The notes beneath the pieces were generated by a model that was not told the DNA's origin, did not search any database, and worked only from the letters and a program-made list of their open reading frames with translations. Shown piece after piece: positions 5,457-52,036 of a DNA stretch of 58,377 bases. Source of the DNA: a virus. A program made the translations under genes and the position numbers. Every line of letters starts with the position of its first letter. Position 1 is the stretch's first letter. The stretch covers positions 1 through 58,377 of the IMG/VR virus record IMGVR_UViG_3300043172_000336. One strand, given 5' to 3'.

Positions 5457-6173
5457 ATGACGAATATTGTTTGCTGGAAATGGGACGACCCCGGCTATGT
5501 ACGCGGGGACAAGCTCCTACCAGAATATTACAATATCCTTTACGCGATGCTGGAGCGGAATATTACACTCCCGGTCTGGGACCTTATCGTGCCCACTGAC
5601 GACACCACCGGCCTTAACCCAAATATCGTTGCGGTTCCGCAACCTTCTTCACTGTCTATACGATCGCCGCACGGTAATCGCTTCCCGGCCTGCTACCGCC
5701 GTCTATGGAACTTCTCGCGTGACGCGCAATACCTTTTCGGCAACCGATTCCTCTGTATAGATGTGGATGTCATTATTGTTCGCAACATCGACGCTATGCT
5801 CACTCGCCCTGAAAAATTCGTTGGGTGGACTGACCCGGACTTTAAGTGGGAGAAAATCGCGGGCGGTCTGTACTACATGCAGGCGGGCGCACATCCCGAA
5901 GTCTGGGATGACTTTGATCCGAAAACTTCACCGGCCATTGCAAAGGCCGACGGCAGACACGGTTCCGACCAGGGCTGGATCTCCCACAAACTTTATCCGC
6001 CCGATGCATCGTTCGGACGCAAAGACGGAGCCTGGTACGCGAAATGGATTCCACCGGGGCTTAATATAACGCCAGCGGAAGTGAAGATCGTCAGCACTCC
6101 AGGTTCAGAGAAACCGTGGCACGAGTCGCTCCAAACTAAACACCCTTGGATCAAGCAGCACTGGAGGCTCTGA
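5457..6173 (+). CDS. GT-A-fold glycosyltransferase with D-V-D motif, cassette copy A
   Basis: This 238-residue protein should transfer a sugar from a nucleotide sugar in the cytoplasm. The key evidence is F-P-A-C-Y-R-R-L-W-N-F-S at about 77-88 followed by F-L-C-I-D-V-D-V-I-I-V. Asp102 and Asp104 form the metal-binding DxD of GT-A enzymes. Further conserved-looking parts are G-G-L-Y-Y-M-Q-A-G and H-G-S-D-Q-G-W-I-S, the latter shared with the paralogue at 10230-10943. The pattern is GT8-like, but the exact CAZy family cannot be fixed by eye. The next gene starts on its stop codon (TGATG). Donor and acceptor are unknown. Confidence 0.75.
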   Translation: MTNIVCWKWDDPGYVRGDKLLPEYYNILYAMLERNITLPVWDLIVPTDDTTGLNPNIVAVPQPSSLSIRSPHGNRFPACYRRLWNFSRDAQYLFGNRFLCIDVDVIIVRNIDAMLTRPEKFVGWTDPDFKWEKIAGGLYYMQAGAHPEVWDDFDPKTSPAIAKADGRHGSDQGWISHKLYPPDASFGRKDGAWYAKWIPPGLNITPAEVKIVSTPGSEKPWHESLQTKHPWIKQHWRL

Positions 6174-6892
6174 TGGACGACGTTACTATTATCGTGCCGT
6201 ACTACCGAAACCCTCTGATGCTGGAGCAGCATGTTCGGTCCTGGGATCTGTTCCCATACAACTTCAAATTTATCGTCGTTGACGACGGCAGCCCTGAACC
6301 AGTAGAGTCGATTCCTAACTCACGGATTAAAGTTCTTCGCATAGAAGAAGACATCCCGTGGAACCGAGCTGGCGCTCGTAACCTTGGCGCACATGTTGCA
6401 GACACCGATTGGATAATCCACATGGATATCGATCATTTTATGCCGCTCAACACAGCCGTCGCCCTGGCCCAATTCACTGCGCTCTCGGACCACTGGTATC
6501 GGTTCGCCAGGTACCGGTTCGGCGCGGCGGATGCTACGCGCAAGAAAGATGATCTCCCTGACGACGTGATGTTTGGCAAGGTCAAGCCCCACATGGACTC
6601 CTACATGGTTGAGCGGAGTATGTATTGGGCGCTCGGTGGGTACGACGAGGACTACTCAGGCTCTCTGGGCGGCGGTGTGCCGTTCGTTAAGGAGCTGGAG
6701 AAGGCAGGCATCCGGCAGGACCTGGACGACCCCTACTACCTGTATGTGTACACTACGGACGCCATATCGGATGCTTCTGACTCATCGCTGAGTCGGGACA
6801 AGGCACGGTATAGCGAGATCCGCAAATCCAAGGCTGATGGAAAAGTACCTAAAAAGGAGCCGTTGCAATTCAAATGGAAGACCGTAGATTAA
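6173..6892 (+). CDS. GT2 family glycosyltransferase, copy A
   Basis: The 239 residues begin M-D-D-V-T-I-I-V-P-Y-Y-R-N-P. F-I-V-V-D-D-G-S-P-E-P at about 32-42 is the nucleotide-binding site, and M-D-I-D-H-F with Asp85 and Asp87 is the DxD metal site. A G-G-Y-D-E-D-Y-S-G block around 160 resembles the acceptor-side E-D segment of GT2/GalT-C enzymes. The start at 6173 (TGATG with the previous stop) is preferred over 6146. It is paralogous to 8347-9060. It probably works with its cassette neighbours on one glycan. Confidence 0.8.
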   Translation: MDDVTIIVPYYRNPLMLEQHVRSWDLFPYNFKFIVVDDGSPEPVESIPNSRIKVLRIEEDIPWNRAGARNLGAHVADTDWIIHMDIDHFMPLNTAVALAQFTALSDHWYRFARYRFGAADATRKKDDLPDDVMFGKVKPHMDSYMVERSMYWALGGYDEDYSGSLGGGVPFVKELEKAGIRQDLDDPYYLYVYTTDAISDASDSSLSRDKARYSEIRKSKADGKVPKKEPLQFKWKTVD

Positions 6893-8181
6893 CAACCTAT
6901 CCCAAAGTTTGGGATGAAGCGGAGACACTCAACCGGCTAATGCGGGGCGCTTCGCTTGCTCGCTTTGGTGACGGCGAGATCAAGCTCATGCTCGGCGGCG
7001 ACCAACTGCGTGAGCCAAAGAACAAGAGGCTCCAGGCTGAACTTCTCGCGGCGCTGAATATCAAACTTCCGAATTACATTATTGGTATCCCAACCATGAA
7101 CCCGGAGGGGTTGAAGTATGTCTTCTGGCATAAGTTCGAAGCACGGATTTTGAGTATTTTGAAGAAGCGCCCGGAATACCATTCTGCGTTTATTACTCGT
7201 CCTGACAGCGCCCCCTGGATAATGAATCGCACGTTTGTCGAGTGCTTTCGATCACTGTGGTTTAATAAAAGGGTTACACTCGTTGCAGAAGACAGCAAAG
7301 TAAAAATTCATAAGGTGATCCATGACTATGCTAAAAAACTTACTCTTGTACGCTGTCCGCATGATGAAGCGCACGCCTCCATTGATGTACTCGAAGATCG
7401 AGTTGTGGCTTCTGATCCTGAGATCGCAATTTTATCCGCCGGTCCTACTGCTACTTGTCTTGTTCCTCGTCTTGTTAGGCGTGGCATTCAGGCAATAGAT
7501 GTAGGGAGCATCGGCGGGCTGCTGCTTACTGTGTTCCCATTAAAAGATGTCGAAGTCTATGGTGAGGTCCAGACACTTGATCTTGTATTAGCCGGAGCCA
7601 GCATCGCCCGCTTCGGTGACGGCGAACTTAAGATCCTGCGAGGCCACGACATCGACTGCCAGCCGTGCCACAAACATTTACGCGGTGCGTTCCAGAAGAT
7701 CATCCTTAACCAGAACCCTGAGATCCTTGTCGGTATTCCACGCCCTGATAAGCTCAGCCCGAAGTACGAGAAGTGGATGGGTTTCATGGCCCACTACGAA
7801 GGGTGGCTCAGCCGGAAGCGTCCGTACGGATCTGCGTTTATTACTCGGGCTGATAGTGCCCCCTGGATCGATACCCCGGAGTACTGGGCCAAGCTGAAGC
7901 AGCTTTGGGAAGGGAAGCATGTTTGCCTGGTCTGGGGTGGAGAGACAGCTTCACTGGTCCCCGCTAAAGTGCGGGGTACAAAACAACTCGATAAGATTAA
8001 GTCGCGCCCCAATAATGCGTGGAAAGACAAAGATAATATCCTCAACCAGATTCGAAAGTTGCAGCCTCAACCGGAGGTCGTCCTCCTCTGCCTGGGGCCG
8101 ACAGCAACTGCACTCGTCCCGGACATCGCTGCCATGGGCATCCAGGCAGTTGACCTCGGCCACGTCGGGAGATGGATGTGA
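6874..8181 (+). CDS. Tandem-duplicated GT-D (DUF1792-type) glycosyltransferase
   Basis: The 435 residues are two copies of one domain of about 215 residues. Each has A-R-F-G-D-G-E (Asp33/Glu35 and Asp249/Glu251), the DxE metal motif of the GT-D fold. Each also has a central S-A-F-I-T-R-x-D-S-A-P-W block and a C-terminal G-P-T-A-T-x-L-V-P then G-I-Q-A-x-D-x-G block. Known single-domain GT-D enzymes add glucose during O-glycosylation of serine-rich streptococcal adhesins. Two active-site motifs in one chain could mean two transfers or an intramolecular dimer. The copies have diverged at protein level, so the duplication is not recent. It overlaps the preceding gene by 19 bases. Confidence 0.8.
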   Translation: MEDRRLTTYPKVWDEAETLNRLMRGASLARFGDGEIKLMLGGDQLREPKNKRLQAELLAALNIKLPNYIIGIPTMNPEGLKYVFWHKFEARILSILKKRPEYHSAFITRPDSAPWIMNRTFVECFRSLWFNKRVTLVAEDSKVKIHKVIHDYAKKLTLVRCPHDEAHASIDVLEDRVVASDPEIAILSAGPTATCLVPRLVRRGIQAIDVGSIGGLLLTVFPLKDVEVYGEVQTLDLVLAGASIARFGDGELKILRGHDIDCQPCHKHLRGAFQKIILNQNPEILVGIPRPDKLSPKYEKWMGFMAHYEGWLSRKRPYGSAFITRADSAPWIDTPEYWAKLKQLWEGKHVCLVWGGETASLVPAKVRGTKQLDKIKSRPNNAWKDKDNILNQIRKLQPQPEVVLLCLGPTATALVPDIAAMGIQAVDLGHVGRWM

Positions 8182-8354
8182 TCGCTGCCTTCAAAGGTGT
8201 GCCCGAAGCTGAGCGCCTGGTCGAGGCCGTTCGGAATTATAAAGGGGGTGATGACCACGAAAGAAGGTTTTTACGCGGCGTGGTTACCTTCTATAAAGCC
8301 CGCCAGCAGCGACCGCAGGTGGTGAGATTTCTGGAGTATGTGCTGTATGGATAA
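8172..8354 (+). CDS. Small hypothetical protein in the glycan cassette, 60 residues
   Basis: It overlaps the end of the GT-D gene. The ATG at 8172 has its GGGAG too close, so GTG at 8178 (six bases from GGGAG, forming GTGA with the previous stop) may be the real start, giving 58 residues. The protein is charged and helical (P-E-A-E-R-L-V-E-A-V-R-N-Y, then F-Y-K-A-R-Q-Q-R-P-Q-V-V-R-F-L-E-Y). No family is recognised. It may assist the flanking transferases, judged only from position. Confidence 0.5.
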   Translation: MDVIAAFKGVPEAERLVEAVRNYKGGDDHERRFLRGVVTFYKARQQRPQVVRFLEYVLYG

Positions 8355-9060
8355 TATTCAGCTCATCTATCCGTACTACGACAACCCCGGCATGTTCTAT
8401 GAACAGCAGTCCGTTTGGGCTGAGTGGGACCGCGAGCTTAAAGCTAAAGTCAAGATCATCATGGTCGATGACAGTAGCCCTAACGACGCCGCTGAAAAAT
8501 ATTACTGCTCCGTCCCCGGCCTGGACTTTGAACTATACCGGGTGCATAAAAATATCCCCTGGAATCAGAACGGCGCTCATAATCTCGCCATGCACGTAGC
8601 TGATGACGGCTGGTGTTTGATGACGGACATCGATCATGTGCTGTCGAACGAGAACCTGGCGAGGCTGTTAGCCATCGAGCCAGATGAAGGCATGTACTAC
8701 ACTCTTGGGCGGCGTCAGTTCGGCCATCTACGTGTGCCTTATAAACGGCACCCCAATTCCTGGCTCCTGACGAGGGAGATGTTTTTGACGAGCGGCGGGT
8801 ACGACGAAGACTTCTCTGGATACTACGGCTCCGACAGTGTTTTCAAAGTCGCGCTTTCTCATGTAGGAACGCACATCAAACTCGAACTGCCATATCTTAT
8901 TGTATATAACGAGGACGACATTCCAGATGCAAACACGCGAGAGTTCGAGCGTAAGCATTCGAAGTACTGGAGTTTGAATCACCCTCACCTGTTAGCAAAA
9001 CGCCGCCACTGGCGGATCGCCTTAAACCCCATTCGATTTCCCTGGGAGCGCATACTATGA
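8347..9060 (+). CDS. GT2 family glycosyltransferase, copy B
   Basis: The 237 residues align with copy A: M-D-N-I-Q-L-I-Y-P-Y-Y-D-N-P at the start, I-I-M-V-D-D-S-S-P-N-D for nucleotide binding, and M-T-D-I-D-H-V with Asp94 and Asp96 as the metal site. The start at 8347 is chosen because it matches the N-terminus of copy A; an in-frame ATG at 8338 adds three residues. N-I-P-W-N-Q-N-G-A-H-N-L parallels D-I-P-W-N-R-A-G-A-R-N-L in copy A. Sequence difference between copies suggests separate donors or linkages. Confidence 0.8.
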   Translation: MDNIQLIYPYYDNPGMFYEQQSVWAEWDRELKAKVKIIMVDDSSPNDAAEKYYCSVPGLDFELYRVHKNIPWNQNGAHNLAMHVADDGWCLMTDIDHVLSNENLARLLAIEPDEGMYYTLGRRQFGHLRVPYKRHPNSWLLTREMFLTSGGYDEDFSGYYGSDSVFKVALSHVGTHIKLELPYLIVYNEDDIPDANTREFERKHSKYWSLNHPHLLAKRRHWRIALNPIRFPWERIL

Positions 9061-9704
9061 AACTCAGTCACGGCTGGTACCACCACGATGTGATGAAAGG
9101 TCTCGGAACGTACATCCGTCGCTCGGGGGTTATTGACGCTGCTATGAAATATCTACCTCCTGAGCGCCGCCGCACAGTCCTCCAGGCAGGAGCGCACCAA
9201 GGAGTCTGGCCTGTCACTCTTGCGAAACTTTTTGAGCATGTGTTCGCGTGGGAGCCAATGCCAAGTAACTGGGAGTGCCTCGTCAAGAACACTGAAAAGA
9301 TCGACAACATTACGATTACGCTGGGCTGCCTCGGTGAGGAAGTAGGTGAAGTAATGCTTGAGGATAAGTCCAATAAAAATACGGGCGCATCTTTTATTAA
9401 CCCCAGGATAGGCACGCAGAGTGCGAAGCAGTTTCGTCTTGACGACTACAATTTCCCTACTCCTGTGGATGCGCTGTTCCTCGATGTTGAAGGGTACGAG
9501 CTTAAGATTTTATTGGGCGGCCACATCCTCATACACAACGACCGACCGGCACTGATTGTTGTCGAGGAAAACGGCTTACAGAAACGTCGATTCAGAATGC
9601 CTGAAAAGGCACTCGGTAAGTACCTGGAAACTTTTGGGTACCAGGCCGTGGAACGCTGGGAAGAAGATGTGATTTATATTCTGGAGGACAATCATTATGA
9701 TTGA
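9057..9704 (+). CDS. FkbM family methyltransferase
   Basis: This 215-residue S-adenosylmethionine-dependent methyltransferase has the nucleotide-binding glycine loop V-L-Q-A-G-A-H-Q-G-V-W at about 41-51. It also has W-E-P-M-P-S-N-W and the FkbM-type block D-A-L-F-L-D-V-E-G-Y-E-L-K-I-L-L-G-G at about 138-155. Family members O-methylate sugars or polyketides and often sit in surface-polysaccharide clusters. Overlaps on both sides (ATGA at 9057; 8 bases with the next gene) put it inside the cassette operon. Methylation of the assembled glycan is the likely role. Confidence 0.8.
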   Translation: MKLSHGWYHHDVMKGLGTYIRRSGVIDAAMKYLPPERRRTVLQAGAHQGVWPVTLAKLFEHVFAWEPMPSNWECLVKNTEKIDNITITLGCLGEEVGEVMLEDKSNKNTGASFINPRIGTQSAKQFRLDDYNFPTPVDALFLDVEGYELKILLGGHILIHNDRPALIVVEENGLQKRRFRMPEKALGKYLETFGYQAVERWEEDVIYILEDNHYD

Positions 9705-10233
9705 TGCAGTAGAGGAGGGGTATCTTATTTCCCCGGAACACAAGGCGCGGTACGTCGAGTACTACGCCGACCGTCCCTTCAAAGATCGACCTCATAAATG
9801 GCAGGAGAAGGTCGAAGCGATTGCGAAGAAGATCGAGGCGAAGTCAGTCCTCGATTACGGGTGCGGCGTAACTCAGGCTTTGTCTCGTTGGTCGTCCCTG
9901 CCTGTGACGGACTATGACCCCGTCATTCCCCACCTGGACTGCCCTAACTTTAATCACAAGTTCGATCTGGTTGTCTGCAATCATGTCTTAGAACATGTCG
10001 AACCTGAGCGGCTCCACGATATCCTAGCGCATATAAAGAGCCTGACTGGTAAGGTCGTCTACATCGCGCTCTCCACTAAGCTGTCTACAAAGAAGCTCCC
10101 TGACGGTACTGAGTGGCATCTGCTTGTCCACAATAAAAAATGGTGGAACCAGCAGTTCAAGAAACACTTCCGAGCCTTCCACATCTTCGAGTCAGATGAG
10201 CGGACCTTTGAAATAATATGGGTGAGAAAATGA
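9697..10233 (+). CDS. Class I SAM-dependent methyltransferase
   Basis: The 178 residues contain S-V-L-D-Y-G-C-G-V-T-Q-A-L at about 49-61 (motif I), D-Y-D-P after it, and F-D-L-V-V-C-N-H-V-L-E-H-V-E-P (motif II/III). This is the Methyltransf_11/23-like Rossmann pattern. GGAGG precedes the start. It is unlike the FkbM enzyme next to it, so two methylation steps or two substrates are likely. The substrate is unknown. It could also act on a lipid or nucleotide precursor. Confidence 0.75.
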   Translation: MIDAVEEGYLISPEHKARYVEYYADRPFKDRPHKWQEKVEAIAKKIEAKSVLDYGCGVTQALSRWSSLPVTDYDPVIPHLDCPNFNHKFDLVVCNHVLEHVEPERLHDILAHIKSLTGKVVYIALSTKLSTKKLPDGTEWHLLVHNKKWWNQQFKKHFRAFHIFESDERTFEIIWVRK

Positions 10234-10943
10234 TTAGAGTAGTATGTTGGTTATGGCCTCCAATGCGAAAATACCGAACGACGTTCACGTATGAACACGT
10301 CAACATCTTTCGCAACATGGTGGAGCGCCACCTGCACATGGAACACGAGGTTGTATGCATTACGAATATGGCAGATCGTATTGATCCTCGTGTCCGTATT
10401 GTTCCGCTGTGGGATGACTATGCTGATGTTGCTTCTCCTCATGGTGGTTTTTCTCCAGCGTGCTACCGAAGACTTAGAGCATTTTCCTCCGAGATGGAGA
10501 ATGTAATTGGCCCGCGTTTTGTTTCGATGGATCTCGATGTCGTCATTGTTGACGATATAACCCCCCTGCTGGACAGGGAAGATGACTTCGTTATTTGGGG
10601 GTCAGTGTTACGGGACACGCCATATAATGGCTCGATGTGGATGATGGACGCAGGCGCTCGCGAAGTGGTCTGGACTGATTTCAATCCGAGTATTTCGCCC
10701 ACACTGACGAGGAAAGCTGGCCTCCACGGATCTGACCAGGCGTGGATGAGCTACCGTCTCGGGGCACTTGAGAAGCGGTGGACACCTAAAGGTGACGGCG
10801 TGTATGCTTTCAGGTCGGATCTAAAACGTCGCCGGTATACGTTACCTGACGACACTAAGATTGTTTTCTTCCAGGGTGCCAACGACCCATGGGATGAATT
10901 TTCACGCAGGGTCGCGCCGTGGATCATGGAGCATTATAAATGA
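10230..10943 (+). CDS. GT-A-fold glycosyltransferase with D-L-D motif, cassette copy B
   Basis: This is a paralogue of the 5457-6173 enzyme. It shares F-S-P-A-C-Y-R-R-L-R-A-F-S, then F-V-S-M-D-L-D-V-V-I-V with Asp101 and Asp103, and H-G-S-D-Q-A-W-M-S. Residues M-M-D-A-G-A correspond to Y-M-Q-A-G-A in copy A. The start at 10230 forms ATGA with the previous stop; a frame from 10218 would add four residues. Its own stop overlaps the terminase start (ATGA), so the last cassette gene is directly coupled to packaging. Confidence 0.75.
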   Translation: MIRVVCWLWPPMRKYRTTFTYEHVNIFRNMVERHLHMEHEVVCITNMADRIDPRVRIVPLWDDYADVASPHGGFSPACYRRLRAFSSEMENVIGPRFVSMDLDVVIVDDITPLLDREDDFVIWGSVLRDTPYNGSMWMMDAGAREVVWTDFNPSISPTLTRKAGLHGSDQAWMSYRLGALEKRWTPKGDGVYAFRSDLKRRRYTLPDDTKIVFFQGANDPWDEFSRRVAPWIMEHYK

Positions 10944-39100: not shown

Positions 39101-42100
39101 GGCGGGGTACTGTTAAGGCTACCCGTGCCTGGCTCACAGACGAAGGCAAGAAATCAAAGTGGTCGATCGTCTATAAGAATAACAAGATCAAAAATATAAA
39201 CACGAAGGGCATAGAGGAAGGGCTGACTATTGATCGGCTCTCGCAAGGCTACTCTACTAAGGCTGCCCAACGTAAATTGATCCGCCGGGTCAAGGCGTTG
39301 ATTGTTTCCGGGCGGCACGGCGGTTGGACTAAGTCGCCGGAAATATCTGCAAGTATTAAACAACGCCAGATGAAAGCAGAGGTAGATCCGGGGGTCCTCC
39401 GTCGTAGTGGGGCGTTCGATGTTACGGTTCTTGGGCATGAGGTCTTCAAGCAAGATGAGTCAACGCCCGATCGTCTGAAACGTATTGCATTATCTAAGAG
39501 GCTACGCGCTAACCTAGATAAAACGATCCGTCGTGCTGCCAAGCACATGAGTAAGATGAACTCCGGTAAGTTTGCTGACCTGATCAATGAGCGAGATGAC
39601 GGTAGCCTTACTGACGCAGCACGCGACATGATCCACGGCAAGGCGTACTTCCGTGTCATTGCTGAGTTCGCCACATCGCTGGTTCGATCTAAGAACTCGA
39701 ACAAAGATGTAAACGAGCAGATGGATAAGGTCGATCAATTTCTAAAGAAAGCAATCGGCCTGCCAGCGAAAGACTTCGCTCGGGTATTAGGTAGGTTGCT
39801 ACGGGCAGAGTCACAGACACAAGTCCGTAACATAGAGGGGTTCTCTGATGCCACGAAATCGACCCTCGCTAATCCGGCCCAGCGTGAAAAGAAAAACGCT
39901 GAAGCTACTGCTCGGTTGCTAGCTGCAATCGCACAGGCAAATCGGATGGAGCATTTTTGGAAGACGAACAGCTACTACAATAATATCGTTGCCCCCCTCG
40001 TGCATAAGTTTGCTAACTCTACAGCCAGTGATGGCTGGCCGAGCTACCAACCGACCGAGGAAGAACTGCAGCAGGTGCAGTGGGTAATGAAGGGATGGGA
40101 TATCCCTCGACTTCGAAAGGAGATGTATACACCGATCCGTAATTTCTTCAAAACCGCTGGGCTTGAATTTACCCCCAGAAAGAAAGACGGCACCGGAGGG
40201 GAGTTGATCATCCCTTACAACGAGGAAGGGAAGTACGACTACTCTCCTTCAAACTTCGCGTTGGAAAGTAAATTCAAGAAACGGTTTGGTAGTGCAGAAG
40301 ACACCAGGTGGGGTGGTATCTGGGACGACGTTGCTCGTCAGACCTACGACCCCCAGGCTGCCGAAGATGCTCGTGAAGACGCGATGAAGGCAGCAGACAC
40401 CAGGTCTGAGCTGGCGACGTTCACCCGACACGCCCAAGCCAATCGAATCATCGAGGAGTTCCGAACGTTTATCTCGAACCCGAAGACAACTATCCCTGGC
40501 ATGATACGTGCCGAGGAGCGCCTGATCCGTGTGTTCAAAGAGCTACGCATGTGGCGTGACACCCCCAGTCCCAAGATGGGACGTATCATGTTTGGTACAC
40601 CCCGCACTCATCGTATCGTTGGCCCTCGTCTTGCGGCGAAGGAGATACGTAAGGACGAAGCTCGGAAACTATTGCTTGCGTCAGTGAAGACTCAGCCCCT
40701 GCCTAAAGCCTGGCGGAAGAACGAAGCTGTCGCCAACGCTGCCCGAGAACAGGTCCGTGCCGAGACGGAGTCGTTCATGCAGGCTACTGATCCGGGGCCA
40801 AGCATCGGCCAGTTCCGTCAGACAGCAGCGATGCTCACTAATAAGCTGGACGATATAACCAACCCGATCAAGATGAATGAGCTTCTGGACATGATCGTTG
40901 CTGGTATTCCAGAGTCACATATGTACCACACCCTGGCGAATCGTATCCGTGCCCTGAATCTCGATGACGTTCTTGTGTCATGGGACTGGCGGAGCCAGAT
41001 CGAAGACCCGCACACAATGGGCCTCTCAAAGTGGGAAGAAGATCCGGCCAATGCCAATGGACAGCTGCGGTATATCCTGCTTAATAAACGAGGTCTCAGT
41101 AAGACACTACACAGACGTGAGCCTCAAGCCAGGCTGCTGCATACCCTCATGCATGAGGCGACACACATGGCGGTGAACGGTGCCATGGATAGAAACCTGG
41201 CAGTGCGAACAATGATGAGGCAGCTTAAGAGGCAAGCACTGGAGCAGTGGGCTACTAACCCAGCAGAACAGGGGAGAGACGTACCCTATGGGTTGAATGC
41301 TTTAGCGGTAGATGAGTTTGTGACCGAAGCATTTTCGAACCCTCAGTTCCAGCAGTTCCTGAAACGTACGAAGATACAGGGTGAAGCACAGACCTTCTGG
41401 CAGAAGATGTTGAATTTTGTTAGGCAGCTACTGGGCCTGCCAGCTAATGACGTACGCGCTACGAACGCACTCGAAGCGATCATGCAAACAACCGACATGC
41501 TATTCACGGGCGAGGTCCGTGACCTCACTGGCAAAGGTACGATGCAAGCGAACCTGGATGTCATGGACTCTGCTCTGAAACCCATCGCTCAGAGTGTCAT
41601 CGGTGACATCGGTAATTCTATGCAGGCAATGCAGTCGGGGTGGGACAAGGCTAAGAAGCTGCGCCTCCGTGCGCCGCTGCACCTCATGTCGATGCGTCAG
41701 ATCCACTACGAGTTCAGACGGTTCTTTAATGATGCCGAGGGTAAAAACCCACTGGACAGGTACAAGGAAGCATGGGAACGCCGCGACTCTGAGAACTCGA
41801 AGCTCATGCATGTCGGTGAGCTACTGTCTACTGTGTGGACAGGACTAACTGAGAGAGGTGGCGTAGCCAATGCCCTTGAGTTTTCAAAGGTGGCTACTGA
41901 AGCGTCACTCTATATGATGCACCCGAATCTCCCACTGGACCACGAGAAAAACGAACACATCACATCGAAGGAACAACACGCCAAGCACGCTGAGTTGGCT
42001 AGACGTTTTAACGCTATGTCGTCAGGCTGGCAGAGTTTGTGGAAGCAGGTGCAGAAGTACTACGCTAACGCCATTGCTGATGAGACTTCGCTCATCATGA

Positions 42101-44670
42101 TCAATGCTCTCCGTGGTGTAGTCTCCCGTGGGGATTACTCGGTCATGGACCGTGATGTATTCGATGCGAAGTATACGCAGGAGTCAGTTGCTGAGTTGAA
42201 ACTTGATACCCAGGAAGGTATACGTAAAGAGTTTCCTGACCTGGCTCCCGAACAGGTAACCGCCCTGGTTACGATCGCATCTATACCAACCCAACGTCGT
42301 GGTCCCTACTTCCCGATGATGCGCTACGGAGAATATCTTGTGTACTCTGAGAAAGAGACAGAGGCCAAGCGGTTCGCCGATAGGAAAGACGCGAATGCAT
42401 ACGCTGCCCAGCGGCGGGCTGAAGACCCGACACTTGATGCGAAGGTGAGAACCACAGGTGAAAACGAACACACGGCGGTCATAACTGAAAAAGATTTCAG
42501 GACGTTTGAGACACGTACCGAAGCTGATGCGACAAGGCTAGAAATGGTTGGGCTGTATGGAGAGACCGCCACATCATCTGTTCAGGTAAAGCATAAGTTC
42601 AAACCGGACGATACAGTTAGCTCTGGCTCTGCGCTCCGTCAAATCCTGGATAGCCTCGACGGGAATGCCAAAGCGCAATCCGCGATCAAGAACTGGTGGC
42701 TGCAGAATCTCTCTGACAGTTCATTCAGGAAGCACGAGATCAAACGAAAGAATCGTCGCGGTGTGGACTATGAGTCGCAGCATCGAAACTTTACTAACTA
42801 CGTGAAGAAGTCTGCGTACTATCGATCGCAGCTTAAGTACGGTAGAGAGATGGCGGACGGGATGCAGGACATCATTGACTACACGAAACAGTACAAGGAC
42901 ACCTCTGGGCCAGATGGAACCACGGCTGTACGGCTGGGCCAGGTGAGGAATCATCTGCAGAAACGTGACTCATTCCTGAACGATCTATCCGAGCCGTCGA
43001 AACTTATCCGTCGTGGTACTGAAGTCGGACAGCTGATGATGTTGTTCGGTCCTTCGTACTGGATGATCAATGCTACGCAACCGTATGTTGTAACTCTCCC
43101 TTGGATGGCCGCCCGGTATGGATGGGGTCCTGCGCTGGCAGTTCTCAAGAATGCTCAGCAGCTAATCATCAGTCCTCTCCTAACAGCCACGAAGGAATCA
43201 ATGGGCGGGATAAAAGCATTGACCTCCAAGGAGGCTGCCGAGAAAGCGTTCAATGTTGTGGACCAGGTGAAGGAAATCATTACCAAACGAGCTGGTGACC
43301 GGGCCTCTGCTTACAACGACATGATTGAACAGCTGCGTAATGTAAGCATCATTGATCTGTCGTGGATTGCTGAGCTGCGTGACATATCTGAGGGCCGGGA
43401 CACTGGTAAATTCCAGAAGACAATCGATGCCACCCGAGTCATGGGCCACCTCACTGAGGTGAACAATCGTATACTCTCGGCCATCGCTGCTTACGATCTC
43501 ATGTACCAGGACCAGGTAGGGAAAGGTCTCAACCACGACGATGCCCACGCAGCTGGTGTGGAGTTCGCTAAGGAATCGACATCGATAACCCACTTTGATT
43601 ACTCTGCTGGGAACAAGCCACTGCTGTTCCAGCCGAACGGACCCCTGGGTAAAGTATCGCCGTTGGTCTTCCAGTTCCTGCAATGGCCGCAGCATATGTA
43701 CGCGACGTTGATTGGTAACACGGCTGCCATGGTTAATGGGGGCACGGTCGATCGCATGGTGGCTGCCAAGACAATCGCCTACATGACGGGTACACACATC
43801 GCTGTCGGTGGCATGATCGGGGTGGCCCTGCAACCAATGAAGTGGGCGATCGGCGCTGCCTTGTACGCCTTCGGTGATGACGATGACATCAACAGTTTGC
43901 AGACAGTTGTCTCAGGAGAGACGTACGACAGGTGGATGAGAGAAGGGGCAACAGATCTCCTTGGGAAGAAGCTGGGCCACGCACTAGCGTCCGGTCTCCC
44001 GGCAGCGTTCTTAGATGTAGAGCTGTCCTCAAGGATGTCAATGGGAACGGTTTACTTCGTTGACCTGAAAACTGACACCGCAGAGTCAGCACTCGGTAGC
44101 CTCGCCGCTGGCTTAGGTGGCCCGTGGGTGAACATTGCGATGGGTGCTGCCAAAGGTTTGCCTATGATGGGCCGGGGTTTGTTCAAGGGGACAGGAGAAT
44201 TCCAGCGCGGCCTGGAGTACTTCCTGCCGAAAGCATTCAAGGACATCTCTAAGACAGTCCGCTATGCAACCGAGGGGCTAGTCAATAACGCTGGTGACAC
44301 AGTCATGGACACGGATGGTATCTCTGGGCAGCAGTTGTTCTTGCAGTCACTCGGGTTCCGTCCCGCCGAGATCGCTGACTTCTATTCACGCCAGGCTCTT
44401 ATTAAAGACACCGAGCGGTTCGGCAAAGAGCGGGCCAGTAGTTTGCTCAAGCGGTATCGAACTGCACGCAGCAGTGAGCAACGTAACAGGGTCTCGCATG
44501 AGATCGCCGTGTTCAACCAGGTGTTTCCTTACACGCCTATCACTTACTCATCGCTGTTACGAGCCGTAAAGGGTAAGCGTGAACGTGAGGCCAGCTACCG
44601 TCGATCTGGTGCCGCGCTGAGGGGCCGTGCTATAATGCTCCAACGCGAAGGTGAGTTCTATAAAAAATAA
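36148..44670 (+). CDS. Giant internal virion protein (2840 residues) with a zincin-type metallopeptidase domain
   Basis: This is the largest gene, 15% of the window. The N-terminus is Pro/Asp-rich. About 170-375 contain glycine/alanine-rich hydrophobic segments (P-L-I-G-G-I-L-V-G-S-I-A; G-G-I-I-G-G-L-T-G-G-V-F-T-G-V) that could insert in membranes. A long charged helical part follows. The motif L-M-H-E-A-T-H-M (His1669, Glu1670, His1673) with downstream D-E-F-V-T-E-A (Glu1723/Glu1727) fits a zincin peptidase. More hydrophobic helices lie near 2300 and 2540-2580. It matches the large polyvalent-protein class of phage ejection proteins. Roles in crossing the envelope and cutting a host protein are inferred. 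No RNA polymerase motifs were seen. Confidence 0.8.
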   Translation: MPSFKETFGEPLTYDPVDPNNDTPPSPRLKAKSFREVFSPGADPGAGADPPPDTFGTKSFGEVFRGRARLNPQPKDEPSFAGDIARDLFSGVVQTGELALGGIEYAARQAAGEEGTFGQYIIGQAVDPLSAARRATGEYAQQIVGSMSQESEDLITREWTTLDPERSVWTQGVGGVTKAVLLKMAQALPATIITMLPAVRLFKAGMTPGAMAYLGASEGALSMGGIAAGLAQEIEGMTHQELLNESPVYQEFISGGLSEDDARSQLITAAQGAAPLIGGILVGSIAATAGKWLEPIIVGKGAKLAGRFGRGTAVEAAQESPQSGVEQFMQNVAAQVFDADRQLSEGVAEAMIEGGIIGGLTGGVFTGVMGARPQQPAGQAPEQAPDPTEDFPEAEPTDLSAALVPVDQPLGQMDLPLTRRERGFPRAPIPPGQQPGPDPTDYSPDLGPLGGAQDKLFGTQPSGAQDPRQGDLFDPVAAGDTTAEPLRDIEAQILEMQRPESGKDAVFLSSASIEHLQRSGDLEAFLDSGVALTNFDGAGGVLLAKDRQAAVGFTEDRNTGGDVERIIGLATGDGVGKPMSRVGSAFATTVVQRRDEAGNIVQERVVADEEEALLIEAQWEQKYPNFDIMIRTADAVQMRRAERVQHEDAQAQAVVAEQELQRQLAEERADTEQEFDVATRFLDEDTRTRTAGAQTPTRAAARLVGEATRQSGERQRIGGFYPPEVLEFQSPTAGKNYDKAFTELVDQEITIKQEELAREDWPRGVRPKHLKGGTGQVTKRLSKAGDKARSRRTALLHELGKIRAKAKPIRRKAANIIEAARELSPETVEGAARGTPATKEREDTPAAAAIPNTQMLGNLTDSKIDVLTGAELARVFKQAATWMAGRWIALQLEYEGGPKTLENIPEGAELLAISVPVMKTKQELWVIESVKKGSPPEGMKGPWVDYVVRQGEKDLTKYVKEGMTKEEIKEATARDLKENTSVGKRRGTVKATRAWLTDEGKKSKWSIVYKNNKIKNINTKGIEEGLTIDRLSQGYSTKAAQRKLIRRVKALIVSGRHGGWTKSPEISASIKQRQMKAEVDPGVLRRSGAFDVTVLGHEVFKQDESTPDRLKRIALSKRLRANLDKTIRRAAKHMSKMNSGKFADLINERDDGSLTDAARDMIHGKAYFRVIAEFATSLVRSKNSNKDVNEQMDKVDQFLKKAIGLPAKDFARVLGRLLRAESQTQVRNIEGFSDATKSTLANPAQREKKNAEATARLLAAIAQANRMEHFWKTNSYYNNIVAPLVHKFANSTASDGWPSYQPTEEELQQVQWVMKGWDIPRLRKEMYTPIRNFFKTAGLEFTPRKKDGTGGELIIPYNEEGKYDYSPSNFALESKFKKRFGSAEDTRWGGIWDDVARQTYDPQAAEDAREDAMKAADTRSELATFTRHAQANRIIEEFRTFISNPKTTIPGMIRAEERLIRVFKELRMWRDTPSPKMGRIMFGTPRTHRIVGPRLAAKEIRKDEARKLLLASVKTQPLPKAWRKNEAVANAAREQVRAETESFMQATDPGPSIGQFRQTAAMLTNKLDDITNPIKMNELLDMIVAGIPESHMYHTLANRIRALNLDDVLVSWDWRSQIEDPHTMGLSKWEEDPANANGQLRYILLNKRGLSKTLHRREPQARLLHTLMHEATHMAVNGAMDRNLAVRTMMRQLKRQALEQWATNPAEQGRDVPYGLNALAVDEFVTEAFSNPQFQQFLKRTKIQGEAQTFWQKMLNFVRQLLGLPANDVRATNALEAIMQTTDMLFTGEVRDLTGKGTMQANLDVMDSALKPIAQSVIGDIGNSMQAMQSGWDKAKKLRLRAPLHLMSMRQIHYEFRRFFNDAEGKNPLDRYKEAWERRDSENSKLMHVGELLSTVWTGLTERGGVANALEFSKVATEASLYMMHPNLPLDHEKNEHITSKEQHAKHAELARRFNAMSSGWQSLWKQVQKYYANAIADETSLIMINALRGVVSRGDYSVMDRDVFDAKYTQESVAELKLDTQEGIRKEFPDLAPEQVTALVTIASIPTQRRGPYFPMMRYGEYLVYSEKETEAKRFADRKDANAYAAQRRAEDPTLDAKVRTTGENEHTAVITEKDFRTFETRTEADATRLEMVGLYGETATSSVQVKHKFKPDDTVSSGSALRQILDSLDGNAKAQSAIKNWWLQNLSDSSFRKHEIKRKNRRGVDYESQHRNFTNYVKKSAYYRSQLKYGREMADGMQDIIDYTKQYKDTSGPDGTTAVRLGQVRNHLQKRDSFLNDLSEPSKLIRRGTEVGQLMMLFGPSYWMINATQPYVVTLPWMAARYGWGPALAVLKNAQQLIISPLLTATKESMGGIKALTSKEAAEKAFNVVDQVKEIITKRAGDRASAYNDMIEQLRNVSIIDLSWIAELRDISEGRDTGKFQKTIDATRVMGHLTEVNNRILSAIAAYDLMYQDQVGKGLNHDDAHAAGVEFAKESTSITHFDYSAGNKPLLFQPNGPLGKVSPLVFQFLQWPQHMYATLIGNTAAMVNGGTVDRMVAAKTIAYMTGTHIAVGGMIGVALQPMKWAIGAALYAFGDDDDINSLQTVVSGETYDRWMREGATDLLGKKLGHALASGLPAAFLDVELSSRMSMGTVYFVDLKTDTAESALGSLAAGLGGPWVNIAMGAAKGLPMMGRGLFKGTGEFQRGLEYFLPKAFKDISKTVRYATEGLVNNAGDTVMDTDGISGQQLFLQSLGFRPAEIADFYSRQALIKDTERFGKERASSLLKRYRTARSSEQRNRVSHEIAVFNQVFPYTPITYSSLLRAVKGKREREASYRRSGAALRGRAIMLQREGEFYKK

Positions 44671-46268
44671 TGCCGAGACAAATAGCAAGTGGCCCACCAT
44701 GCCCCAAGTGCGGGAAGCTCATGGCGCGGGGTCCGAAATCACAATCAGGTAGGCTAAGGTGGACGTGCCGTCACTATGAAGACGGTAAAAGAATCTACTG
44801 CTACAGTACGACTGACCCGGAGACAGCCAGAGTGAATACACCATCAGGTAAGACCGAGAAGTTATCGTCACCAAAATTTAACCGTAAGCTCGGCGACGTA
44901 AAAAGATTCATCATCACGTCGGCGCAGAACGCAACACCAATCCACGAAGGTTTCTTCAGGGCGCTCAAGGCGTACTGCAAGAAGAACGGTGCGGAGCTGG
45001 TCGTCATACCAATCCGATACAAGAACCCGACCTCACGATGGACCGAGAGCCAGCGCAACGACGAGGTTTGGGCACCGGAGCTGCGACCCCACCTATATAA
45101 CCAGCGTAAGAAGCTCTGTAAGCATCTCGTTCTTTTAGGAGATATTAAAACAAGGCCCACTGCACAATCTCCTCTTACAGGCTTCGAGGGGATCACTCAT
45201 GGTGAGTCTGGCATCCTCGGTCATTCCAAACTGCAATTAAGAACTATCCCCACTCCACAGAATTCTCTACCGAAGATCCTAACGACCACCGGCAGCTGCA
45301 CGGTGAAGAACTACACCGACAGCAAGGCAGGCAAGAAGGGTGAGTTCCATCACGTCATCGGTGCCTGTGTCGTGGACATCAGCGGCGGCAAGTTTCACAT
45401 GCGCCAGGTGAACGCGACGAAGGACGGCTCGTTCATCGACCTGCAACACCACTATAGATCTAGTGGCCGGGTACACAGGGCGAACAAAGCATTGGGCCTC
45501 GTCATGGGTGACACCCACATGCGCTTCGTTGACCCGCAGGTAATCAAAGCCACCTTCGGTAAGAAGGGGATAGTGAACGCCCTCCTACCTGATGTCCTCG
45601 TCTGGCATGACCTACTCGATGGGTACAGTGCGAACCCACATCACTTCGGCAACCCGTTCATCGAGATCGCCAAGCGCCGGGCGAACATGCACATCGTGGA
45701 GGATGAGATCAAAGAGACGGTCTGGTTTCTCCGTAAGCACACACCCCCCGGACGTAAGAGTATCGTCGTAGCATCTAACCACGATGACTTCTTCCGCCGC
45801 TGGATCATGGACACTGACTGGCGACGTGACCCGGACAACGCATCGTTCTACCTTGAGACAGCCAAGCTCATGGCTGACTCCGCACACATGGACAAGCACG
45901 GCGCAAGCTACCTCGACCCATTCACCTACTGGGTGGACAAGTTAAAGGACAGCCCTAGTATCTCCTGCCTACCTGTGGATGAGAGCTACATGCTCGGCAA
46001 CATTGAGGTAGGGTTCCACGGTCACCGTGGCCCGCACGGAGCCAGGGGTACAGTAAAGAACTTGAGTCGCCTCGGTGTCCGTGTCATCACCGGCCATGGT
46101 CACGCACCTGCGATCGAAGAAGGACACTTCCGCACTGGCACCAGTACGTATCTCAAGCTGGAGTACAACGAGGGACCCAGTGCCTGGTTGAACACGCACT
46201 GCATCGTCTATGCCAACGGCAAGCGATCACTGATCAACATCATCGACGGCGCGTGGAGGTTTGAGTAA
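44670..46268 (+). CDS. Zinc-ribbon plus calcineurin-like metallophosphoesterase
   Basis: Of 532 residues, Cys11, Cys14, Cys33 and Cys44 (with His35) form a zinc-ribbon-like site. The phosphoesterase core has M-G-D-T-H (Asp281, His283), H-D at Asp314 and S-N-H-D-D (Asn370, His371). F-H-G-H-R-G-P-H and T-G-H-G-H-A (His476, His478) complete the two-metal set. A segment I-T-S-A-Q-N-A-T-P-I-H-E and I-P-I-R-Y-K-N-P-T-S resembles proteins remembered as T5 A1-like, but that link is uncertain. It likely cuts nucleic acid or nucleotides. TAATG joins it to the giant gene and to the ClpP-like gene. Confidence 0.75.
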   Translation: MPRQIASGPPCPKCGKLMARGPKSQSGRLRWTCRHYEDGKRIYCYSTTDPETARVNTPSGKTEKLSSPKFNRKLGDVKRFIITSAQNATPIHEGFFRALKAYCKKNGAELVVIPIRYKNPTSRWTESQRNDEVWAPELRPHLYNQRKKLCKHLVLLGDIKTRPTAQSPLTGFEGITHGESGILGHSKLQLRTIPTPQNSLPKILTTTGSCTVKNYTDSKAGKKGEFHHVIGACVVDISGGKFHMRQVNATKDGSFIDLQHHYRSSGRVHRANKALGLVMGDTHMRFVDPQVIKATFGKKGIVNALLPDVLVWHDLLDGYSANPHHFGNPFIEIAKRRANMHIVEDEIKETVWFLRKHTPPGRKSIVVASNHDDFFRRWIMDTDWRRDPDNASFYLETAKLMADSAHMDKHGASYLDPFTYWVDKLKDSPSISCLPVDESYMLGNIEVGFHGHRGPHGARGTVKNLSRLGVRVITGHGHAPAIEEGHFRTGTSTYLKLEYNEGPSAWLNTHCIVYANGKRSLINIIDGAWRFE

Positions 46269-47930: not shown

Positions 47931-48361
47931 AGCGTGGCGTCCATCACTCTGGCTAACAAGAGTCGTCGGCCAAACTCCTCAAGTTTTCCCCCTTCGTACA
48001 TAAATATAGTGTGGTAACACAGCAGTCCGGTCACCACCTCCAGCCGCGCACCCTTAGATTTCTCCCACCCACTCAGTAGTATGATGCCGTTGCATTTATC
48101 AGCGATCAACTCAACGTCACGCCCAAGTATCTGCCCCCATGACTCGCCCGCTATCTTCCCGGCCTTGTCTAGTCGCCCATCCTCGGACGCAAGCGCAGCC
48201 TCTCGGACTGTAGGTGAATCTGTTTCGACTGGTGAGATGATAGTAAGTCCCACGTCACGTAACTCTTTGGCAGCAGCTTCGAACGCCGGGAAGTTAAACT
48301 GTGGAATGCCAGTCATGGGACCGGCGAGATAGAATGTCTTCTTTAAGTCTGCGAGTTTCAT
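47927..48361 (-). CDS. DUF4406 / nucleoside deoxyribosyltransferase-like protein
   Basis: The 144 residues have the fold signature T-F-Y-L-A-G-P-M-T-G-I-P-Q-F-N-F-P-A-F at about 9-27. The active-site-like W-G-Q-I-L-G-R-D-V-E-L-I-A-D-K-C-N-G-I-I and S-K-G-A-R-L-E-V follow. Relatives move a base between deoxyribosides or hydrolyse nucleotides. With the DUF5664-like gene directly downstream it suggests reshaping of the nucleotide pool. Coupling by ATGA supports joint expression. The substrate is not determinable from sequence. Confidence 0.75.
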   Translation of the reverse strand: MKLADLKKTFYLAGPMTGIPQFNFPAFEAAAKELRDVGLTIISPVETDSPTVREAALASEDGRLDKAGKIAGESWGQILGRDVELIADKCNGIILLSGWEKSKGARLEVVTGLLCYHTIFMYEGGKLEEFGRRLLLARVMDATL

Positions 48362-48609
48362 TAGTATACGTCTCCATTGTTTCCTCGTTTGTGTTCTTCA
48401 TAAGGCGCTACCTTTCGGCGGTAGAATTCCTGCTTCGCACACTCCAACACGCCGATGATTTCGTTGAGGAGTTCATAGCTAACATCTTTGTCCTTCAAGT
48501 AGGCAAGGCAAGTCTTCGTGATGATGTAGTTGAGTTCCCCTGCGTCCATGGCAAAGCTGCTCTTGTTTCGGTCCAGTCTCTGTCGTTGTTTCTTTGTTAC
48601 GTATGGCAT
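48361..48609 (-). CDS. Small conserved phage protein (DUF6899-like)
   Basis: The 82 residues begin M-P-Y-V-T-K-K-Q-R-Q and contain G-E-L-N-Y-I-I-T-K-T-C-L-A-Y-L and Y-E-L-L-N-E-I-I-G-V-L-E-C-A-K-Q-E-F-Y-R-R-K-V-A-P-Y-E. The sequence ends N-G-D-V-Y. This is a compact helical pattern common in aquatic phages and catalogued as a domain of unknown function. It overlaps the sulfotransferase stop by one base (TAATG-type junction). The function is unknown; its frequent company with replication genes is the only clue. Confidence 0.7.
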   Translation of the reverse strand: MPYVTKKQRQRLDRNKSSFAMDAGELNYIITKTCLAYLKDKDVSYELLNEIIGVLECAKQEFYRRKVAPYEEHKRGNNGDVY

Positions 48610-49181
48610 TAGAATGTGTATCCAAACTTTTCAATTTCCCAGGCACCGTTCACCGCGATCAACTCCTTGTCCTCGGGTTCAACGACCAACTCCCTGACGG
48701 TGTGGTTCTTGAACTCGGACCGCTTCCTATGTCGGAGAGCTATTGGTTTGATGCCGAGGGCCAGTGCAATATCATCGTGCGAGCCACGCAGGTCCTCAAA
48801 CCTAAAGACGTGATCAACTATCTTCCGACCGTCCTCGTCACACAGCATGTTCACTGGGCACTGCTTGGTTACCCACTCGTATCCTTTCTTCGACATGTAC
48901 GGTGTGTACAACCAGGTGTGGAAGTCTTCCCGCTGCCAGTCGAGGTCCGTCTGCATCTTCTCGTGCCTGCTCTCCCGAAAGTAATAGTACAGCGAGATCA
49001 TCCTCTCCCATGGGTTACGGACGAAGCTGAAACTCCACGCATCATTCCACTTGTAGTTCAGCCGCTTACGTACCTGCAATGCGGTGTCGTGACTGAAGTA
49101 ATAGATGTGGTCCCGGTACATCATCTTCACGGTGTTGCCGTTCGTACGAGGGACGTGGATAAAGACTGCGTTGCGTATCAT
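48609..49181 (-). CDS. Sulfotransferase family protein
   Basis: The 190 residues show the two cofactor motifs of Sulfotransfer_2-type enzymes. F-I-H-V-P-R-T-N-G-N-T-V at about 7-18 is the 5'-phosphosulfate loop, normally H-I-P-K-T-G-G. F-S-F-V-R-N-P-W-E-R-M-I-S-L-Y-Y-Y-F at about 51-68 is the 3'-phosphate motif. F-R-F-E-D-L appears near 127. Such enzymes transfer sulfate from PAPS to sugar or protein hydroxyls. The usual lysine of the P-loop is arginine here. It sits in the replication operon, not in the glycan cassette, yet chemically complements it. Confidence 0.75.
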   Translation of the reverse strand: MIRNAVFIHVPRTNGNTVKMMYRDHIYYFSHDTALQVRKRLNYKWNDAWSFSFVRNPWERMISLYYYFRESRHEKMQTDLDWQREDFHTWLYTPYMSKKGYEWVTKQCPVNMLCDEDGRKIVDHVFRFEDLRGSHDDIALALGIKPIALRHRKRSEFKNHTVRELVVEPEDKELIAVNGAWEIEKFGYTF

Positions 49182-51982
49182 TTAACTACCTCATCTAATG
49201 GTTTCGAGTGTGTGAGTGGAACCTCCAACAGGTACTGAGCGATTGGAATCTCATACTTCGTTCCGATGCCCAGCTTCGCACGCTTCTCCGTGGCACCCAT
49301 CTTAGTTTTCAATGTCTGTACGATCCTGCCCGAGGGTAAGCCCCGTGCCTCCAGCCATCGAACGAAGTCCGACCGGGAGAAGCGGACCAGGTCATCGTCC
49401 CGTGACTGGTGACAGATGATCTTCTCGCTGCGCGGTGTGATAAGTATCTCGGGATGGTATCCACGAGTGTTCGCTCTGGGTAACGGGAAGACATCAACGA
49501 GTAACACCTTGTCTTGGTGTTGCTGTATGTAAGAGCTGACGATCTCCTCCGGCTCGAACGCGGCGAGGCTACGGTTGCCACGGCCACGCAGGTGGTTCAG
49601 GTTGCCGCCGAGGAATCGGATCAGCGTCTTGGTATTTATCTTAGCGATTTCTAAGTCGTGTGCTATCTCAGCACCTACTACTATCGCAGCCATCATAGAG
49701 AACCAGAACCGTTCGGCTGGGTCTTCCTTCAGTGCGACCCCCAGCTTGGTACGTATGTGTTGGACTCGTGCCTCGACCTCCGGTGCATGACGCGCCAGGT
49801 ACTGGGCGTACACCCTGCCTGCGTGCCCGTAGTTCTGATTCAGCTGACCGAAAAGCACAGCCAGCTCGGACACGTTGACCTTGTCAGTGGATGGTTGGAC
49901 AGTCACCTCGAACGTGCGAGCAACGCCAGCGTCCGACCCTGTACTGTGACGAGCCATCGACTCGAAGATAGAATCGTTCGACGCCACGATCAGCATCGTC
50001 TCCCATGTATGGATCTCCTGCATGGCAGCCTGCTGGGTGAGCCGTGTCTTCTCCTTGCCCTGTGCAATCTGGAACACGAGGCGTACAAATTCTTCGACGG
50101 CTTCCTTACCACGCAGCTCATCCCAATAGGCGGGCAGGTTATTCAGGTAGCCCAGCTTGCGGGCGACACTCTTAGGTGTGTCATCAATCGCGTTCACTCC
50201 ATGAGTAGGTGAACCCCAGACAGCTTGGCTCATCTTAAGGGCCGAGGTCTTACCGACACCACTCTCTGCGCTGACTATTGATAGGGTGCCACCTGATATG
50301 CCAGTGAACCTGAGTATGGGTGCGGCGAATGCGCTCGCCAGGATAGCAGTGAACGCCGGGTTGTCCTGTGTCGTTATGAACTCGGCGACCTCTTGCCATT
50401 TCTTATAGGTGCCGACCGGCTCGTAGTACTTACCGATCGCAGTAAATTCTTTCGCGGTGCGTACGTCATCACGCACCCGACCATCAGCATAGAAGGTGGT
50501 GCGACCGCACGAGAACCCGACGATCGCATCGTCCTTTGTGACCCAGCCTAGCTGCTCCGTTACCTCGGCGACATGCTTGGCGTCCTGTAAATTCTTCAAC
50601 CAAATAGCCATAAGTTCCTTGAAAGCTATCGCTTCCTTACCTCTGAATGCAACCCCGTACAGGGCCATGTGTTCGATGAGTTTGTGCTGGTTGCCGAGAC
50701 ACTCTCCCGGTATGACCAGGTCCAGTACGATACCAACAACGTCGAGCCGGTGTTCCACCATGCCTGTCAGTAACGAGCGTGCTGTTCTGAAGTTGGCAAA
50801 CTCGTAGCTGATCATCTTGACCCACGCCTTACCAGTCTCCTCGTCAGTCATCAGCCGTTCCGTCTTGCCTTCGTGCCCGCGCCACCCCCATGGTAGGCCG
50901 CCAACTTCCTTCGTCTCTGCGGTGCCTACTTGTACAGGTGTCTTGATAAATCCAAACCTGGGGCACCGCTTGCACATCTCCGGGTAGTACCCTTCGAACG
51001 TGCTACATAGGGTGGGTCCAGCCGTGTTCTCCTTCCTTTGCTCCCACTTCTCGTTAGTGGCCGACGCATCGTAGCCGGGATGACCATCAGACACGGCGTG
51101 GACCCATAGCTCTGCGTCTTCGCAATGCTTGAGCAGTTGTAGGATGAGGACCCATTCGGGTTCGCTGCACTCCTTCCCGTGGGTTTCCGCTATGTGTCTG
51201 GAAACCTCACAGTGTTTAATGATCTCTTGGAACGTGCCGGGTTCAACCTTGGCCCCGCCGCCTACCCCGGCAGTGAACTCATCGTAGACGTTACCCGACA
51301 GGACTGAGGAGACAGCCGACTTGACGTACGGTGAGAGCCTGGCTTCCAGGTCCTCCACGTTGAACAGTTGGTCGGAGCTGTATACAACCTGCACCTTGGC
51401 CGGGTACTTCCAGTTGACTGTACTAACAGGTCGTAGGACACGGCAGGCGTCAGCGGTGCAGGCAAGGTCAGCTATCAACCCGGCCTGCTTAGCGGCCTGC
51501 TTCAGGGCCTCAGCGAGCGGCTGCCAACGGGCCAGGGGGATAGGCAGCTCGAAGGGCCAGTAGGCATGGATGCCTCCCCCTGAGTGGACGAGGATTGCTG
51601 GCGGTGGCATCCCCACCTCAGCACAGAAGGTTCGGAGCGCCTCGATCACCTCGCGGGCGTCGGCATACCCTGACTTGAAATCTATGTCGAACCAAAGGGC
51701 CTTGAGTGAGTCAACATTGTCACGCACTCGCATGACCTTCTTGAGCTTGCCCTTCTTCTCGATGGTGTGGAACCCACGCTTGTAAGAGGCGAGGGCGAAG
51801 TAGGTATCCTGTTTGGTCAGCGCGAAGTCCACGACGGCCTGAGCTAGGTCGTGGTGTGTTCTCCTGACACGGTGTTCAAATGTAGAGTACGTCCGTCCCT
51901 CGGCTGAGGTCCGATCGATCTTGCGGGCAGTAACGAGATGTCCGGGTGGAACTACTGCCTCAAGAAAATCTATGAGGTTCAT
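49178..51982 (-). CDS. Primase-helicase (AEP-type primase domain plus SF3/DUF927-like ATPase)
   Basis: The protein has 934 residues from ATG 51982; a GTG at 52000 adds six. The N-terminal primase part has L-W-F-D-I-D (Asp99, Asp101), L-V-H-S-G-G-G-I-H-A-Y-W and R-V-L-R-P-V-S-T-V-N-W-K. This is the archaeo-eukaryotic primase order D-x-D, S-x-H, then a basic strand. A cysteine cluster (S-T-F-E-G-Y-Y-P-E-M-C-K-R-C) links to an ATPase with S-A-E-S-G-V-G-K-T-S (Lys578) and a later I-V-A-S-N-D-S-I sensor. It likely unwinds DNA and lays primers for the polymerase encoded at 56692. No clear Shine-Dalgarno is visible. Confidence 0.85.
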   Translation of the reverse strand: MNLIDFLEAVVPPGHLVTARKIDRTSAEGRTYSTFEHRVRRTHHDLAQAVVDFALTKQDTYFALASYKRGFHTIEKKGKLKKVMRVRDNVDSLKALWFDIDFKSGYADAREVIEALRTFCAEVGMPPPAILVHSGGGIHAYWPFELPIPLARWQPLAEALKQAAKQAGLIADLACTADACRVLRPVSTVNWKYPAKVQVVYSSDQLFNVEDLEARLSPYVKSAVSSVLSGNVYDEFTAGVGGGAKVEPGTFQEIIKHCEVSRHIAETHGKECSEPEWVLILQLLKHCEDAELWVHAVSDGHPGYDASATNEKWEQRKENTAGPTLCSTFEGYYPEMCKRCPRFGFIKTPVQVGTAETKEVGGLPWGWRGHEGKTERLMTDEETGKAWVKMISYEFANFRTARSLLTGMVEHRLDVVGIVLDLVIPGECLGNQHKLIEHMALYGVAFRGKEAIAFKELMAIWLKNLQDAKHVAEVTEQLGWVTKDDAIVGFSCGRTTFYADGRVRDDVRTAKEFTAIGKYYEPVGTYKKWQEVAEFITTQDNPAFTAILASAFAAPILRFTGISGGTLSIVSAESGVGKTSALKMSQAVWGSPTHGVNAIDDTPKSVARKLGYLNNLPAYWDELRGKEAVEEFVRLVFQIAQGKEKTRLTQQAAMQEIHTWETMLIVASNDSIFESMARHSTGSDAGVARTFEVTVQPSTDKVNVSELAVLFGQLNQNYGHAGRVYAQYLARHAPEVEARVQHIRTKLGVALKEDPAERFWFSMMAAIVVGAEIAHDLEIAKINTKTLIRFLGGNLNHLRGRGNRSLAAFEPEEIVSSYIQQHQDKVLLVDVFPLPRANTRGYHPEILITPRSEKIICHQSRDDDLVRFSRSDFVRWLEARGLPSGRIVQTLKTKMGATEKRAKLGIGTKYEIPIAQYLLEVPLTHSKPLDEVVK

Positions 51983-52036
51983 AAAACTGGAGGGGTCCAC
52001 ATCGCACAGGAGGTGGACAATGTGAACCCCTATACA

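Follow-up and report, generated by a model that had tools for sequence, protein, structure and literature searches.

A 58,377-nucleotide stretch of viral DNA (IMG/VR record IMGVR_UViG_3300043172_000336, hereafter the window) encodes a protein of 190 amino acids that is very probably a sulfotransferase enzyme. The carrier is a virus of bacteria, and the protein is a divergent addition to a large, already known family of phage sulfotransferases. Sequence and a structural model together show its family, its fold and the conserved residues of its PAPS site. The function we favor, with a probability of roughly 0.55, is that of an accessory (moron) PAPS-dependent O-sulfotransferase that takes sulfate from PAPS made by the host and places it on the hydroxyl of a sugar, perhaps at the surface of the host cell in the early phase of infection. 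A saccharide is the probable acceptor, and the choice of the host surface rather than the virion as the target is tentative.

The family assignment comes from profile searches. The protein matches PF03567 (Sulfotransfer_2) at 30.3 bits (5.9e-7; curated cut-off 22) across residues 39-159, a span that leaves the P-loop outside, and phrog_3347 at 2.4e-8 across residues 3-155. The latter family is labeled galactose-3-O-sulfotransferase and classed as a moron/auxiliary metabolic gene. A profile of relatives, the query protein included, recovers the protein in its own record at 7.6e-48, a score that places the match far beyond chance. NCBIfam returned no match for the protein, nor did phmmer against PDB sequences; only profiles reached sulfotransferases, and in these searches a cytosolic sulfotransferase (SULT) matched slightly better than the heparan-sulfate (HS) enzymes.

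The translated frame reads MIRNAVFIHVPRTNGNTVK... (P-loop HVPRTNG) and continues to ...FVRNPWERMIS..., so that both the PAPS-binding loop and the VRNPWER motif named in a preliminary description of this DNA are present. Its reading of the product as a PAPS-type sulfotransferase is likewise supported by the Pfam and PHROG matches, the conserved PAPS-site residues and the predicted fold. The P-loop (residues 9-17, HVPRTNGNT) aligns with the approximate pattern H-x-P-[KR]-T-[GA]-G-x-[ST] of the relatives found, and the 3'-phosphate motif consists of V54-R55-N56-P57 and S63, with the arginine and the serine eight residues apart. In an alignment of 56 diverse sequences R55, P57 and S63 are invariant, as a smaller set agrees, and H9, G15, H31, V54, N56, E129 and Y188 are nearly so. 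The preliminary description had also singled out the replacement of the P-loop lysine by arginine. R12 is indeed there, but it was rejected as a special feature since 31 of the 242 relatives with a residue at this position (25/150 viral and 6/92 bacterial) also carry arginine. The truly rare P-loop residue is N14: not one of the 242 relatives shares it, G or A (rarely S or T) standing in its place; lacking any counterpart among them, N14 may reduce or alter PAPS binding.

An AlphaFold2 model built from the 56-sequence alignment (pLDDT 85.1, pTM 0.83) supports a sulfotransferase fold and leans toward a sugar acceptor without proving it. The best VIA-align match is a heparan-sulfate 6-O-sulfotransferase (Z 11.3, 3.7 A, 175 residues), followed by N-deacetylase/N-sulfotransferase (NDST; Z 10.6) and HS 2-O-ST (Z 10.1). 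Cytosolic SULTs score Z 8-10, the best of them reaching Z 10.0, level with HS 2-O-ST and not far below the leading match. Because the fold is common to SULTs and to antibiotic sulfotransferases such as StaL and Teg12 (Z 8.3-10), it does not by itself identify the acceptor. Foldseek matches were weaker (best E 6e-3). Among the nearest viral predicted structures are SIO1 gp5.1 and several phage and giant-virus proteins named as sulfotransferases.

The gene occupies exactly the coordinates given in the preliminary description (48609-49181), begins with ATG and is tightly packed with its neighbors (Table 1). The primase-helicase TGA and the sulfotransferase ATG share an ATGA overlap, the sulfotransferase stop and the ATG of the DUF6899 gene share TAATG, and GAGG lies about 8 bases before the sulfotransferase ATG. 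The position between these two genes, as previously described, is confirmed, the downstream gene being a true DUF6899 gene, and gene order after the primase-helicase supports membership in the replication-strand gene run. From gene order alone, the gene would be expressed early; in a promoter and terminator scan at the locus, consensus promoter counts were no higher than in shuffles. An assembly artefact at the locus is unlikely, since a second contig of 18.9 kb shows 100% identity across a compared stretch of 10,245 nt that includes the sulfotransferase gene. This contig extends past the end of the window (G001:C1:1-9000), where ATPase-like and VWA/metallopeptidase-like ORFs were recognized by eye. 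The gene has a GC content of 0.52 against a window mean of 0.53 and a high GC3 (0.733). A recent foreign origin was considered on composition and not adopted: GC lies near the window mean despite the high GC3, and there is no clear sign of one.

Table 1. Features of the sulfotransferase locus and of the glycan cassette in the window
Feature	Coordinates	Strand	Basis
Glycan cassette (whole)	5457..10943	+	Pfam scans
GT-like	5457-6173	+	
GT2	6146-6892	+	
435-aa protein, two GT-D domains in tandem (6955-7512, 7603-8166)	6874-8181	+	
GT2	8338-9060	+	
FkbM methyltransferase	9057-9704	+	
Methyltransf_23	9697-10233	+	
GT-like	10218-10943	+	
dATP/dGTP diphosphohydrolase N-terminal domain protein (PF18909, dGTP_diPhyd_N), 208 aa	47304..47930	-	
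DUF4406, nucleoside 2-deoxyribosyltransferase-like, 144 aa	47927..48361	-	
DUF6899 protein, 82 aa, directly downstream of sulfotransferase	48361..48609	-	1e-25
Sulfotransferase (Sulfotransfer_2 type), 190 aa	48609..49181	-	Pfam, PHROG, alignment, model
DUF927-type primase-helicase, 940 aa, directly upstream of sulfotransferase	49178..52000	-	

Related primase-helicases (40-63% identity) occur in 12 other IMG/VR records, some of them fragments, and the sulfotransferase is absent from all 12 by Pfam and by the profile of relatives described above. Among the siblings inspected, the place following the primase gene is taken by different genes or left empty. Absence from these records and the varied slot indicate that the sulfotransferase was added sporadically where the replication gene run ends. 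Glycosyltransferases of the cassette adjoin the terminase in four of six longer sibling records, three of the six having GT-D; one sibling GT-D frame (G008:C1:60575-61180) contains a single in-frame TGA, owing to frameshift, decay or assembly error. Several siblings also have ORFs of about 2800-3160 aa placed similarly to a 2840-aa ORF of the window at 36148-44670 (+), as well as ORFs similar to the 532-aa protein at 44670-46268 (+), which has a zinc-finger-like start and no Pfam match. A pooled scan of window proteins additionally detected a Tad2-like protein (Thoeris anti-defence, PF11195, 5e-20), whose probable bearer is the ORF at 3273-3605 (+).

In the favored reading, PAPS would come from the host, as no PAPS-synthesis gene was found among the Pfam matches of window proteins. 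The P-loop would hold the 5'-phosphosulfate of PAPS, and R55 and S63 would contact its 3'-phosphate. The sugar hydroxyl that is to receive the sulfate may be activated by a conserved histidine, for which H31 is the probable candidate on sequence grounds; the catalytic base of HS2ST is His142 (PMC6094399). Sulfation of a host-envelope glycan early in infection might change a receptor, for instance against superinfection. Since the gene joined the replication run and not the cassette, early sulfation of the host envelope is slightly likelier than a sulfated virion glycan.

The glycan cassette, confirmed at about 38 kb from the sulfotransferase and found to contain GT2, tandem GT-D, FkbM and Methyltransf_23 domains, is a possible source of the acceptor. 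The sulfotransferase could act on the glycan of the phage's own cassette, giving a sulfated and methylated glycan of the virion or surface. Both lie in one genome, and the sulfotransferases of other phages are found inside glycosyltransferase/methyltransferase clusters. Among 40 other viral records (>=33 kb) with sulfotransferase relatives, 27 contain a GT2 match, compared to 2 of 23 random viral records (>=25 kb; Fisher p 5e-6), the random set having been drawn by arbitrary 15- and 16-base words and not being habitat-matched to the carriers. With record size limited to about 65 kb, the counts are 13/23 and 1/19 (p=0.0007). Far from being consistently devoid of glycan genes, then, carriers of these distant homologues often have them, and the ORFs beside viral relatives are most often methyltransferases, glycosyltransferases, sugar dehydratases/epimerases and further sulfotransferases (31/147). 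The specific tie to the GT-D cassette that had been proposed is nevertheless not supported: sibling phages have the cassette but lack the sulfotransferase, GT-D occurs in 0/40 of the other carriers, and the gene is distant from the cassette and on the opposite strand. Taken together, phage sulfotransferases go with sugar genes generally but not with this cassette in this lineage, and action on the phage's own glycan is somewhat unlikely. A timed, two-part decoration, in which early host-surface sulfation would exclude rival phages and the same enzyme would finish a phage-made methylated glycan late in infection, is still less probable and has only a slender chance of being correct.

Other acceptors have also to be weighed. 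Action on a small molecule (a host metabolite, a signal or a toxic compound) or on a protein would agree with the fold shared by SULTs, StaL and Teg12 and with the slight lead of SULT in profile searches; it is unlikely given that carbohydrate sulfotransferases are the best fold matches and that relatives adjoin glycan genes. The primase, DUF4406 and dGTP diphosphohydrolase-like genes of the operon could instead suggest modification of phage DNA or nucleotides. This is highly improbable, as Pfam scans of window proteins contain no base-hypermodification family, relatives sit with sugar genes, and siblings have a related primase without the sulfotransferase. A decayed or inactive copy, with an intact fold and no catalysis, might explain the unusual N14 and the long branch of the protein in a tree, but the frame is fully open, R55, S63, H31 and E129 are kept, GC3 gives a good codon signal, and two assemblies are identical; inactivity is therefore very unlikely. 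An active, accessory sugar O-sulfotransferase remains our preferred reading.

The family to which this enzyme belongs is extensive. An alignment-based search found relatives encoded by at least 273 viral contigs, and at least 431 bacterial relatives; identity to relatives is only about 18-31%. A degenerate FVRNPWER pattern found 13 viral stretches, the identical contig among them. No close homologue was found beyond this contig of the same phage, tblastn searches of phage records yielded no more than three matches, all weak, and a quick tree places the protein on a lone long branch without close kin. The novelty first attributed to a phage sulfotransferase accompanied by glycan genes is not supported, as PHROGs already lists the family as accessory, the viral contigs are numerous, and the cultured Pelagibacter phage described below is a precedent. 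Sulfotransferases are also reported in metagenomic genomes of OM43 phage groups, where the role of sulfotransferases in phage genomes is considered still unclear (PMC10580990). A literature search for phage sulfotransferases together with sulfated LPS and phage resistance returned nothing.

The protein resembles PF03567 members, of the heparan-sulfate 2-O-/6-O-sulfotransferase type, in its above-cut-off profile match, its fold and the R-x7-S 3'-phosphate motif. It differs from them as a minimal domain of 190 aa with no membrane anchor seen and with R12 and N14 in the P-loop, and structural alignments show it to be 13-16% identical to HS2ST and HS6ST. The match to PHROG 3347 is distant, and galactose specificity is that family's label only. 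Being small, with no anchor seen, and lying outside the glycan cluster in a cluster-bearing genome, the protein could help to separate host-surface from virion-glycan sulfation. Among phages, Roseobacter phage SIO1 gp5.1 and the sulfotransferase-like protein of Ralstonia phage phiRSL1 are among the best viral predicted-fold matches (16-18% identity), although the gene surroundings of SIO1 gp5.1 differ from those seen here. Sinorhizobium phage AP-20-A is reported to carry a sulfotransferase in the replication part of its podovirus genome (PMC13299392), a likeness of reported position. Mosig_00186, a putative sulfotransferase of Pelagibacter phage Mosig EXVC030M, belongs to the same family (23.5% identity) in a phage that also has glycosyltransferase and methyltransferase genes; its gene lies inside the glycosyltransferase/methyltransferase cluster, whereas that of the present phage lies in the replication gene run.
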